A DNA stretch of 40,065 nt from a virus, in IMG/VR virus record IMGVR_UViG_3300042327_000861, positions 1 through 40,065 of that record, one strand, 5' to 3'. The notes under the pieces are model-generated. The model saw only the letters and a program-made list of their open reading frames with translations. It did no database searches and was not told the origin of the DNA. Below are positions 2,507 to 30,067 of this stretch, in pieces (position 1 is the first letter of the stretch; every line of letters begins with the position of its first letter). The position numbers were made by a program, and so were the translations under genes.

Positions 2507-2620
2507 TTCTTGCGATTTTGCAAAGTAAAGCGGCAATTTTCAAGTCGCATCTAGAAAAATAATGCGGCCTTTTGCTTCCCCTCATGCCCGCCCCCTAGGA
2601 AGGACCCAAAGGGGGGGGTG
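2507..2620. other. Intergenic region before the ParB-mom-terminase genes
   Basis: A 114-bp gap between the Mor-like gene and the ParB-like gene. It holds a G8 run near 2611-2618, a CCCCCTAGG segment near 2591-2599, and one TTTTGCAAAG half-site near 2516-2525 just upstream of the ParB-like start. A late promoter controlled by the Mor-like protein, or a packaging (cos-type) site, could lie here. I see no convincing -10/-35 pair. Confidence 0.35.
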
Positions 2621-3292: not shown

Positions 3293-3592
3293 ATGCAACC
3301 ACTTTGCCTTGCAAAGCCCATGCAAAACAAAATGCAAAGCTCCAAACTCCTTCATTCTCAACGTCCTAGCCCCCTTTACTTACTTACTTTGCAACTTTGC
3401 AGGATATATATATATATAGTAAAAAAATCTGGTCTCGTCCTCCCATATAGGGAAGAACTCCAATTCAGTGTTTTTTATATAGTGTCTTGCGCTCCGATTT
3501 CGGCGCAAAGTTGCAAAGTAACGTTGTAATCTCTTATGAATAATGCGTTTATGACTTTGCAACCATGGCAAAACACCTGCTAAACTTTGCGC
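3293..3592. promoter_or_regulatory. TGCAAA iteron cluster and AT-rich control region, possible replication origin
   Basis: About 300 bases with no convincing gene. TGCAA(A/C) occurs in one orientation starting at 3293, 3310, 3321 and 3333, at 11-12-bp steps for the last three. A perfect 17-bp inverted repeat (TTACTTTGCAACTTTGC at 3384-3400 and its complement at 3505-3521) flanks a 104-bp AT-rich core with a (TA)n tract at 3404-3418 and a TTTTTTATATAG stretch. More TTTGCA copies lie at 3554-3559 and nearby. Clustered iterons and an easily melted core beside the primase gene suit an origin; operator clustering for the early/late switch is equally possible. Confidence 0.5.
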
Positions 3593-7063: not shown

Positions 7064-7666
7064 TTAAGCTAGCAAGCCTTCGATTTCCTTGGTCATCAGC
7101 TCTGGAAATGCTGTAACAATATCGCGCAGTCCTTGTGCGGATGAATTCCAGTTACCAGAGCCGCGATTGTTGGCGGTTTTGCTCCAGGTGCGCAGGTGGC
7201 AGAGGTCACCGTAGCGAGATTCAAGCGTGTTGAGAGCGGTCACTGAGTTCATCCAGACGGATTTGGTGCAATATTTCTTAGCTACCGGCTTGAATGGCTT
7301 GAAGTCTTCGATCAACTCGTTGTAGCGATTAATGAAACTGTAAATGTCGCCAACAAATACTGGCACTTTCTTGCGTGTGTCGTCAGGTTGATAGCGGATA
7401 GCATAGGCTTTCAGGCTCATATCGCTGCTGATGTCGTAGTGAAACTCAGTGTCGCCATGCTGCTCAGGGCGGCTGGTGAGTTCAGCTCCAGGAATAGCGC
7501 GAAGGATTTGTTCGGCGAATCCGCCGTTGCCTGCTGCTGCTGCTGCATTCGTCAGAGCTGCGTAGAAATATGCGGCGGCTCCGGTCTCGTATCCATCCCA
7601 ATGAATGTAAAGGTGAGCGGTGACTCCCATGTTGTTCGTGATGCTGTATGTTGCGCGTGTTGCCAT
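7064..7666 (-). CDS. Hypothetical early protein
   Basis: A 200-residue protein when started at ATG 7666, chosen because it carries the ACACTATG start context of other early genes; an upstream in-frame Met at 7723 falls inside the TGCAAR motif and is unlikely. The N-terminal part reads MATRATYSITNNMG and contains YIHWDGYETGAAAYFYAALT, a conserved-looking aromatic and Gly-rich segment; the rest is mixed alpha/beta and soluble. No catalytic motif is evident and I cannot assign a function. It heads an early transcript, with a TGCAAR direct repeat 56 bases upstream. Confidence 0.8.
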   Translation of the reverse strand: MATRATYSITNNMGVTAHLYIHWDGYETGAAAYFYAALTNAAAAAGNGGFAEQILRAIPGAELTSRPEQHGDTEFHYDISSDMSLKAYAIRYQPDDTRKKVPVFVGDIYSFINRYNELIEDFKPFKPVAKKYCTKSVWMNSVTALNTLESRYGDLCHLRTWSKTANNRGSGNWNSSAQGLRDIVTAFPELMTKEIEGLLA

Positions 7667-7721
7667 AGTGTTTTTGATCTGAGGTTTGTTTCCCGTTTGG
7701 GTATGGCTACTATTCCGCATC

Positions 7722-7735
7722 ATTGCAAACTTGCA
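7722..7735 (-). promoter_or_regulatory. TGCAAR direct-repeat motif (candidate early operator/promoter)
   Basis: Minus-strand TGCAAG-TT-TGCAAT, 56 bases upstream of the 7666 start. On its upstream side is an AATTCAAACT block also present near the 13758 copy. CTTGCA could act as a -35 with AATAGT 17 bases downstream as a weak -10. Confidence 0.5.
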
Positions 7736-7754
7736 AGCACGAGTTTGAATTATT

Positions 7755-8102
7755 TTAAATAATCTTTAAGGCCGATTCAGCCCCGACCTCATCGCGCACC
7801 ACGGATGCAATGCCACCGGCAGCGGCAACTTGCTGCATCCAGTTGATCTGGTCAGGTCTGACTTTGCCGGTCAGAGTCTTGCATTCCAGACTAACGAACA
7901 CGGCGAGACGCTGGCCCACCATCTCGGGCGTGACCGTCACCGACTTCCAGCCAATGAGGTCAGCGCTTCCTGGGTGAAGGCCGAACTGGACGAACCGGCC
8001 TTGTTGGTCTTTGAGCGCCCCGACGTTGTTGCGGAAAAGTCGGACGCCGGTGATCTTTGATGCAGCCAGCCGGATGCGTTGCAGGATGGTGGTTTCGTTC
8101 AT
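7755..8102 (-). CDS. VRR-NUC domain nuclease
   Basis: A 115-residue protein of the VRR-NUC family of PD-(D/E)XK nucleases. Visible elements are the basic N-terminal helix, GLHPGSADLIGW with the metal-binding Asp, then VSLECKT with the E-x-K catalytic pair, and QINWMQQVAAAGG before the terminal strand. The start at ATG 8102 overlaps the helicase stop by ATGA, which decides it over the upstream TTG at 8147. In phages this small nuclease is usually found beside a DEAD/DEAH-type helicase, as here, and is thought to cut branched or flap DNA during replication or recombination. Confidence 0.87.
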   Translation of the reverse strand: MNETTILQRIRLAASKITGVRLFRNNVGALKDQQGRFVQFGLHPGSADLIGWKSVTVTPEMVGQRLAVFVSLECKTLTGKVRPDQINWMQQVAAAGGIASVVRDEVGAESALKII

Positions 8103-9817: not shown

Positions 9818-10048
9818 TTACGCGGCCAGCGATGACGTCTCAGCCTCGCGCTTTTCCAGCGCCTTCGTGACTCGTGAAAGAGTGCCGAGCGTTGGCGATG
9901 ATTTGCCTTGCTTCCACCGCCACCACGTTGACCAGTCGATACTGGCGTCGGCTAGGATGTCGCGAATGGGCGTGTTGATTGCAGCCGAACGCCGTTCAAA
10001 GTCGGCAATAACGGTGTCGGTGATGGAGTTGGATTTGTTGAGGGTCAT
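9818..10048 (-). CDS. Small HTH regulator (Cro/repressor type)
   Basis: About 76 residues from ATG 10048, with an XRE-like helix-turn-helix: TPIRDILADASIDWSTWWRWKQG followed by SSPTLGTLSRVTKALEK. The Trp-rich recognition segment resembles other short phage regulators. A TGCAAR direct repeat lies 20 bases upstream of the start, so the protein may control its own promoter. As the only clear small XRE regulator in the genome it is the best candidate for a lysogeny repressor or Cro-like protein, though it has no oligomerisation or cleavage domain. An in-frame upstream start at 10096 would overlap the motif and is less likely. Confidence 0.7.
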   Translation of the reverse strand: MTLNKSNSITDTVIADFERRSAAINTPIRDILADASIDWSTWWRWKQGKSSPTLGTLSRVTKALEKREAETSSLAA

Positions 10049-10067
10049 GGGAAGATTGTGGTTTAGT

Positions 10068-10081
10068 CTTGCGACTTTGCA
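10068..10081 (-). promoter_or_regulatory. TGCAAR direct-repeat motif upstream of the HTH regulator
   Basis: Minus-strand TGCAAA-GT-CGCAAG preceded by CGCT and followed by ACTA, 20 bases upstream of ATG 10048. Its closeness to the start would allow a bound protein to block initiation of transcription, as in autoregulation. Confidence 0.5.
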
Positions 10082-10197
10082 AGCGAGAACGCGCAAGATT
10101 GATCAAGCGCGGCAGTTGCTGAGCCGTTGTCCAGCTCTTTTATGCTTGTGCCTGAAAAATTACCGCCGATATTATCGCCGGTTTGTTAATAGTGTGG

Positions 10198-13757: not shown

Positions 13758-13771
13758 CTTGCAACTATGCA
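13758..13771 (-). promoter_or_regulatory. TGCAAR direct-repeat motif upstream of the 13713 gene
   Basis: Minus-strand TGCATA-GT-TGCAAG with upstream ATTATTTCAAACT, which resembles the sequence at the 7722 copy. TATTGT downstream could serve as a -10 about 15-16 bases from CTTGCA. The start codon is 45 bases downstream. Confidence 0.5.
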
Positions 13772-13794
13772 AGCGCAAAGTTTGAAATAATTCA

Positions 13795-16169: not shown

Positions 16170-17048
16170 TTACGCCGCTTTAGGCATGGCCCAAGCTGGC
16201 AAATTGAGTTCGGCTGGCACATCGCCCAGCCCTGGCCAGATGCCGGACGCTTCGCACTTGGCGAACATCTCCAGGTCTTCACGGAGTTGTGAACGGCCAA
16301 AGTCGATCATGGACGGACTGGCGACGTAGGCGCGGCAGAGGTAAGGCGCTTCGGACTCTTGAGCGATGAAAATAAAAGCCTTTGGCTTCTCACCGCTTAC
16401 TGCCTCCCAGCCGTCGAGATACATCGCGGCCTGCCGGTAATATCCGTAGTTCCAAGCGGCACGTTGGAAGGCGTCCTCGCTCGCGTCTTGGCAGGTCTTG
16501 GGGTCGATGATCAGGCCATCGGCGCGGATGATGTCCGGTCTGGCGCGGCATTTCACGCCGGTTGCAGAGTCCTGCCAGAATAGACTGGCCTCAGTGTAAA
16601 GTCGTGCGGACTCGATGGCATTGCGGCAGGCGAGGTTTTTCATCATTGCCTCGCGCATTGCGTGGCATTTTGCGACGTCCTCCTCATTCACGATGATCTT
16701 GCCATCATTGCTAGCGTTAAAGTTGTCCCACCAGTGAATGGCTTCGAGTGTTTCAAGGCTTGGTTTCTTCGCCTCGCGCTGAATCCGTGTCGGACGCTTT
16801 GGTGCGTCGCTCGGCACTGTGGAATAGAGCTTTGGAAAAAGTTCCGGCTCTAGGATGACGGTGTGATATAGACTGCCGAAAAGCAGCGCCGGTGATTTAG
16901 TCTCACTGGGGTTCTTTCGCTTCCAGTCGTAATACGCTGGAGCCTTGCGGAAATCGTCGAGGCCGTGCTTTGAGACGGCTTCATGACGATGATATGACGA
17001 TGCTTCAAGGTCACGAATGACCGATGGGTATGTTGTAGGGGTTTGCAT
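16170..17048 (-). CDS. PD-(D/E)XK exonuclease (RecE C-terminal type)
   Basis: A 292-residue nuclease like the C-terminal half of E. coli RecE, which chews one strand of a DNA end to leave single strands for recombination. Visible motifs are ALLFGSLYHTVILEPE (typical start of the fold), KCRARPDIIRADGLIIDPKT with the Asp and Asp-x-Lys catalytic residues, and AAWNYGYYRQAAMYLDGWE (the conserved Q/Y helix). It starts at ATG 17048, in a CACAATATG context; an in-frame GTG/ATG at 17087 would overlap the TGCAAR motif. It is first in the recombination operon. Confidence 0.88.
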   Translation of the reverse strand: MQTPTTYPSVIRDLEASSYHRHEAVSKHGLDDFRKAPAYYDWKRKNPSETKSPALLFGSLYHTVILEPELFPKLYSTVPSDAPKRPTRIQREAKKPSLETLEAIHWWDNFNASNDGKIIVNEEDVAKCHAMREAMMKNLACRNAIESARLYTEASLFWQDSATGVKCRARPDIIRADGLIIDPKTCQDASEDAFQRAAWNYGYYRQAAMYLDGWEAVSGEKPKAFIFIAQESEAPYLCRAYVASPSMIDFGRSQLREDLEMFAKCEASGIWPGLGDVPAELNLPAWAMPKAA

Positions 17049-17088
17049 ATTGTGGGCCTCGGGTTGAGGCTCCACAAGAGAAGCCACT

Positions 17089-17102
17089 CTTGCAGACTTG
17101 CA
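17089..17102 (-). promoter_or_regulatory. TGCAAR direct-repeat motif upstream of the exonuclease gene
   Basis: Minus-strand TGCAAG-TC-TGCAAG, the most symmetric copy, 40 bases before ATG 17048. A TATAAT (17140-17145) lies about 38 bases further upstream, so here the repeat could be an operator downstream of a -10, or itself contain the -35. Confidence 0.52.
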
Positions 17103-17168
17103 AGCGAAAGATTGCTATAAATTGCGCGACTGTGCCGCGATTATATACGGTTAGCCGATTGAAACGGT

Positions 17169-30045: not shown

Positions 30046-30059
30046 GTTGCACGTTTGCA
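30046..30059 (-). promoter_or_regulatory. TGCAAR direct-repeat motif upstream of ssb
   Basis: Minus-strand TGCAAA-CG-TGCAAC, 36 bases upstream of the ssb start at 30010. It is the only copy inside the structural half of the genome and would give ssb early expression independent of the late operon. Confidence 0.5.
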
Positions 30060-30067
30060 AGTTGTTT

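Follow-up and report, generated by a model that had tools for sequence, protein, structure and literature searches.

The 40,065-nucleotide virus record analysed here (the window) encodes an integrase and has its ends between the two terminase genes, which is what a circularly permuted, near-complete genome would show. Five early genes or gene units on its minus strand are each preceded by a 14-bp inverted repeat, TTGCA-N4-TGCAA, in which two 5-bp half-sites flank four unconserved bases (Table 1). The initial annotation had noted sites at these five places with TGCAA half-sites 8 bp apart, which is correct, and had put them 20-56 bases before gene starts, in agreement with dyad-to-ATG distances of 19, 35, 40 and 44 bases and, as estimated from the sequence, about 55 for the site at 7722. 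It described the motif as the direct repeat TGCAARNNTGCAAR, to which four of the five minus-strand copies have one mismatch; only 17089-17102 is exact, and exact matches to the literal pattern in the window are limited to 3388 (minus strand), 7724 (plus) and 17089 (minus). Written as TTGCA-N4-TGCAA, the motif is perfect at four of the five places (7723, 13759, 17090 and 30047) and carries a single mismatch at 10069. TGCA reads the same on both strands, which gives the motif the look of a direct repeat.

Table 1. Dyads and associated features of the window (predicted functions).
Feature	Position	Strand	Remarks
Predicted operator/-35 dyad, SSB gene	30046-30061 (core 30047-30060)	-	Exact; ATG 30010, 35 bp downstream
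Predicted operator/-35 dyad, exonuclease VIII-like gene	17089-17104 (core 17090-17103)	-	Exact; ATG 40 bp downstream
Possible second, weaker operator TTGAA-N4-TTCAA	13782-13795	-	23 bp upstream of the 13759 dyad; putative function
Predicted operator/-35 dyad, unit after AAA_24/HTH_17 genes	13758-13773 (core 13759-13772)	-	Exact; ATG 13713
Predicted operator/-35 dyad, HTH gene's own promoter	10068-10083 (core 10069-10082)	-	TTGCAAAGTCGCAA, one mismatch
Candidate -10 CACAAT	10055-10060	-	16 bp from TTGCAA, 6 bp before HTH ATG; from alignment
Small Cro/C1-type HTH protein, proposed binder and autorepressor	9818-10048	-	76 aa; WSTWWRWK helix conserved
Predicted operator/-35 dyad, 7064-7669 gene	7722-7737 (core 7723-7736)	-	Exact
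Candidate -10 AATAGT of the 7722 promoter	7709-7714	-	Conserved A (position 25) and T (position 29)
17-bp inverted repeat	Arms 3384-3400 and 3505-3521	.	Exact; upstream of Mor-like gene
Weak dyad TTGCAAAATCGCAA, uncertain member	2510-2523	-	One mismatch; just upstream of ParB-like gene

The exact dyad occurs four times in the window against 0.12 expected, a count reached in none of 1000 shuffles, and all four copies are noncoding, while noncoding DNA makes up 7.5% of the window. Copies with at most one mismatch are not in significant excess (seven against 2.8 expected, with a maximum of eight in 200 shuffles), so the window by itself does not substantiate the weaker matches near 2510 and 3389. 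Related contigs were collected with SSB, HTH, AAA_24, exonuclease, primase, Mor-like and helicase proteins as queries. Counted over nine related contigs together, TTGCA heads the 1024 possible 5-N4-5 dyads with 29 counts, one of them a duplicate from overlapping pieces; the runner-up has 6. At the other spacers from 0 to 12, TTGCA...TGCAA occurs in these contigs only once at 7 and once at 10. A separate de novo dyad count over loci of at least 6 kb ranked TTGCA-N4 first in the window and in L071, L073, L074, L148 and L149. A few exact dyads fall within coding sequence of relatives, for example in a baseplate gene (L003, 11602). Overall, the motif is rare in coding sequence, rather than equally frequent there, and homologous genes bear it in relatives, so neither of the doubts that the initial annotation had raised about it applies. 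In other helicase-linked phages (L174-L190), some of which encode unrelated small HTH proteins, no recurrent TTGCA-type dyads were found, and L251 (genome G015, reached via a Vreelandella locus) has neither an STWWRW-type HTH ORF nor a recurrent dyad. A search for A1 in 369 genomes of the class of G015 gave no match, and a literature search for the dyad motif was uninformative.

Individual sites are kept in front of the same genes. The SSB dyad is found at the same place in L002 and L003 and probably also in G002 (L166); the exonuclease dyad is kept in L074, L075, L076, L078 and, imperfectly, L147; the 13758 dyad has an equivalent in L071, L074, L075, L076, L078 and L148; and the 7722-type site recurs in L074 (19630) and L148 (7213). 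Upstream of the 13758 and 7722 sites lie terminator-like hairpins. Behind the dyad of the exonuclease operon, a short hairpin (GCCTC-N5-GAGGC or similar; 17045-17080 in the window) stands right before the start codon; it contains an SD-like GAGG, is kept in L071, L074, L075, L076, L078 and L147, and possibly serves translational control. In L071, a gene that by eye is acyl carrier protein-like lies behind one dyad (7580-7860).

The HTH gene (9818-10048 in the window) is covered by five records, the window, L071, L074, L076 and L148, and in every one of them a dyad lies 19-28 bp before its start. Its product is a small single-domain Cro/C1-type HTH protein that reaches no Pfam gathering score, HTH_26 appearing only below the curated cut-off. 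The AlphaFold2 model, a confident one (pLDDT 87.7), has four helices in a C-protein/XRE fold, and the top PDB matches from Foldseek, all weak (E of at least 0.06), are the C-proteins C.Kpn2I and C.Esp1396I, XRE/ClgR and P22 c2. The site lies where the operator in a Cro-type gene's own promoter would be, which would imply autoregulation. The window has no divergent partner gene for a shared-operator arrangement with a CI repressor, and neither its record nor the nine related ones yielded a Peptidase_S24 domain. The proposal that the motif is a regulator's binding site fits these data, and the HTH protein, one of the two binders suggested at the outset, appears to be the best candidate.

Comparison with a syntenic but distant phage, L107 of genome G001 (identity 46% for terminase, 42% for primase and 62% for AAA_24), points the same way. 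L107 carries about nine TTGCG-N4-CGCAA dyads, and TTGCG-N4 ranked first in its de novo dyad count with seven copies. At the corresponding position, in front of the helicase, L107 has a small, diverged HTH gene that is itself preceded by a dyad; the protein is weakly related by sequence to the window family (hhalign P 6e-4 against the family profile, 22% identity). The recognition helix is WSTWWRWK in the window and PSTYYAWT in L107, where the half-site is TTGCG instead of TTGCA, so helix and half-site appear to have changed together.

Homologues of the HTH protein were also found in bacterial genomes by profile search, by sequence alone. Seven of the 13 that were inspected have GCA-N4-TGC dyads upstream, compared with a background of about 1.2% per 110 bp, although four of the genomes have near-identical upstream regions and the independent cases therefore number about four. 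The half-sites are TTGCA in G847, GTGCA in G658 and GCGCA in G1221, G1244, G1245, G1364 and G1186; upstream of other homologues, either dyads of another sequence (TAAGC, GTGCT) or none were found. In three of these genomes, G847, G1245 and G1186, the HTH gene and a Peptidase_S24 repressor gene point away from each other, and these loci with operators between the two genes have the layout of lambda-type cI/cro immunity. G1245 and G1364 have two exact operator dyads 23 bp apart, and the same pair again at a second locus. The paired GCGCA-N4-TGCGC sites at bacterial loci L273 (10243-10266 and 13245-13268) and L276 (7213-7236 and 9260-9283), 23 bp apart, occur at two places each, one of them beside a divergent gene pair, and resemble OR and OL in an uncharacterised immunity system of the lambda type. 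The possible second operator of the window has the same pitch: exact TTGAA-N4 dyads stand 22-23 bp upstream of four of 28 aligned phage sites, in two promoter classes, against a background of 0.0012 per position.

These observations bear on the possibility that the dyads instead belong to a host repressor, similar to LexA or of another kind, by which the early genes would be wired to the host DNA-damage response. The controlled genes include recombination- and repair-like functions (SSB, exonuclease VIII-like), with a RadC-like gene nearby, and the 5-N4-5 geometry also occurs in some LexA boxes. LexA motifs differ greatly between groups (PMC8565304). However, a site is always present at the HTH gene, and sites of this class accompany the HTH family in unrelated bacterial genomes, placed between HTH gene and S24 repressor; in L107, half-site and helix change together. 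All of this makes control by a host repressor improbable.

The form of the site was resolved by aligning 28 sites from relatives of the window, many of which are homologous copies and thus do not amount to 28 independent observations. Positions 2-6 (TTGCA) and 12-14 (GCA) are invariant; at position 11, 25 of the 28 sites have T, and at position 15, 27 have A. A direct repeat requires A at position 7, but only 16 sites have it, 10 having T and two C; a T there destroys the direct repeat while the dyad stays intact. Binding as a tandem dimer, as first suggested from the 8-bp period, is not supported, base 7 being variable among near-invariant dyad bases, and together with the L107 variant TTGCGTCGGCGCAA, a dyad without direct repeat, the alignment speaks against the direct-repeat reading. 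For the same reasons a CII-like activator that binds tandem direct repeats around the -35 is very improbable. Lambda CII reads TTGC-N6-TTGC around the -35; some copies here can be read as TGCAA-N3-TGCAA, the sites do lie at the -35, and the L074 HTH protein has one weak PHROG match to a 'CII-like regulator' (E 0.0025). But the period is 8 bp and not 10, the sites have dyad symmetry, and their centre near -27 is a repressor position.

The same alignment bears out the suggestion that a -35 element is built into the operator. The dyad overlaps the -35 position (TTGCAN), and downstream position 25 is A or T in 27 of 28 sites (A 19, T 8) and position 29 is T in 23 of 28; the two are four apart, like the two key bases of a -10, and describe a weak -10 (NANNNT) 16 bp after TTGCAN. 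The exonuclease promoters lack the A at -10 position 2. As a scan for the generic sigma-70 promoter consensus did not flag the dyad sites as promoters, the promoter reading rests on the conserved spacing and not on consensus score. At the -10 of the HTH gene relatives have GACAAT, GACATT or CATCCT, and the HTH-gene promoters take the form TTGCAA-16-CACAAT/GACAAT/GACATT with the ATG 6-9 bases on, from which the mRNAs would be nearly leaderless. That the palindrome instead folds in 5' leaders as an RNA hairpin, CUUGCA-N4-UGCAAG (6-bp stem, 4-base loop), acting on translation or mRNA stability, is the least probable reading: the main sites do lie 19-55 bases before start codons, but the HTH-gene -10 is only 6-9 bases from the ATG, and the -10-like pattern at fixed spacing downstream would leave the dyad outside the transcript.

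We consider it likely that the dyads are single operators of the phage's own Cro-type repressor, the HTH protein at 9818-10048, placed over early promoters. From the dyad, its positions and conservation, the fixed -10 spacing and the linkage to the HTH gene, all read from sequence, we infer binding by the HTH protein, as a dimer, and repression. Under this scenario, an HTH dimer would bind each 14-bp dyad with one 5-bp half-site per side. The left half-site TTGCA would serve as the -35 of a sigma-70-type promoter with its weak -10 16 bp on, so that the bound dimer would cover the -35 and shut the promoter. One such operator-promoter would control each of five units: SSB, the exonuclease/recombination block, the post-AAA_24 unit, the HTH gene and the 7064 unit. 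Rising levels of the HTH protein would turn down the early genes and its own gene together.

The predicted system shares features with several known ones. As with lambda and 434 Cro, the protein is a small single-domain HTH and the operator is a 14-bp dyad with 5-bp half-sites around four less conserved bases (ACAAT-N4-ATTGT in 434) that overlaps the promoter, autoregulation being implied; genes of homologues also diverge from that of an S24 CI-like repressor, the operators lying in the gap. In contrast to lambda and 434, no S24-type repressor was found in the window or its relatives, five separate units have one operator each rather than operator clusters at two promoters, the half-site is TTGCA, and the operator includes the -35 hexamer. 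In the regulon of phage P1 C1, one repressor acts at many operators scattered over the genome, many over -35 boxes; a single repressor with scattered operators overlapping the -35 is likewise proposed here, but the P1 operators are 17 bp and asymmetric, and C1 is larger and unrelated to the HTH protein. The restriction-modification controllers C.Kpn2I and C.Esp1396I, the top fold matches, are small autoregulatory HTH dimers, as the HTH protein here is predicted to be; unlike these, the HTH gene here belongs to no restriction-modification operon, and sequence identity is 14-20%. Finally, L5/Bxb1-type phages have repeated, dispersed repressor sites, the stoperators, whose motif drifts together with the repressor between relatives (PMC6550527). 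Dispersal within one phage genome and co-drift with the proposed repressor are found here too. However, stoperators are asymmetric, lie mostly outside promoters and block elongation (PMC6550527), whereas the sites here are symmetric, promoter-embedded and few, the main ones lying in promoter-like gaps before genes, which sets them apart from cluster A stoperators.

More tentatively, and with a good deal of doubt, these phages might represent an integrase-bearing tailed-phage family that dropped the S24/CI half of a cI/cro switch, a lone Cro-type protein running lysis-lysogeny timing or immunity via one-operator promoter cassettes, with the half-site as -35 hexamer, copied to every early unit. 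The likely repressor reading would itself give an uncharacterised, uncultured phage family a regulator with its operator and a small regulon. A poorly recognised HTH family that scores below the Pfam and PHROG thresholds would also gain a DNA code, GCA-N4-TGC with outer bases that vary, and prediction of immunity specificity would become testable. The helix/operator pairs WSTWWRWK-TTGCA, PSTYYAWT-TTGCG, QSTWWRWR-GTGCA and VSTWTRWK/RSTFQRWK-GCGCA could help to derive specificity rules.

The initial annotation had also counted the 17-bp inverted repeat at 3384-3400/3505-3521 as further arms of the same motif and named the Mor-like protein as an alternative binder. The repeat itself is exact, but its sequence differs in G002: upstream of the Mor-like gene, TTTGCAAAGT in the window is replaced by TTGGCAAA/TTTGCCAA (L150 9500-10000). 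This other, changing repeat argues against the Mor-like protein as binder of the dyads, and the repeats of the Mor region are probably sites of another regulator. A sequence similar to the 2510 dyad occurs in L148 at 12542; both the 2510 and the 3384-3521 elements are probably separate from the dyad set.

Searches were also made for clues to the host. Megablast against phages gave no match. The best genome match of the AAA_24 protein is at 55%, the terminase is nearest to those of Roseobacter phages (49%), and the best plasmid matches of SSB are varied and include Opitutaceae TAV5. Many genes of the window (starts at, for example, 30010, 13713, 16139 and 9717) have no clear Shine-Dalgarno sequence, and their start context, CACACACTATG, may be a further clue to the host.
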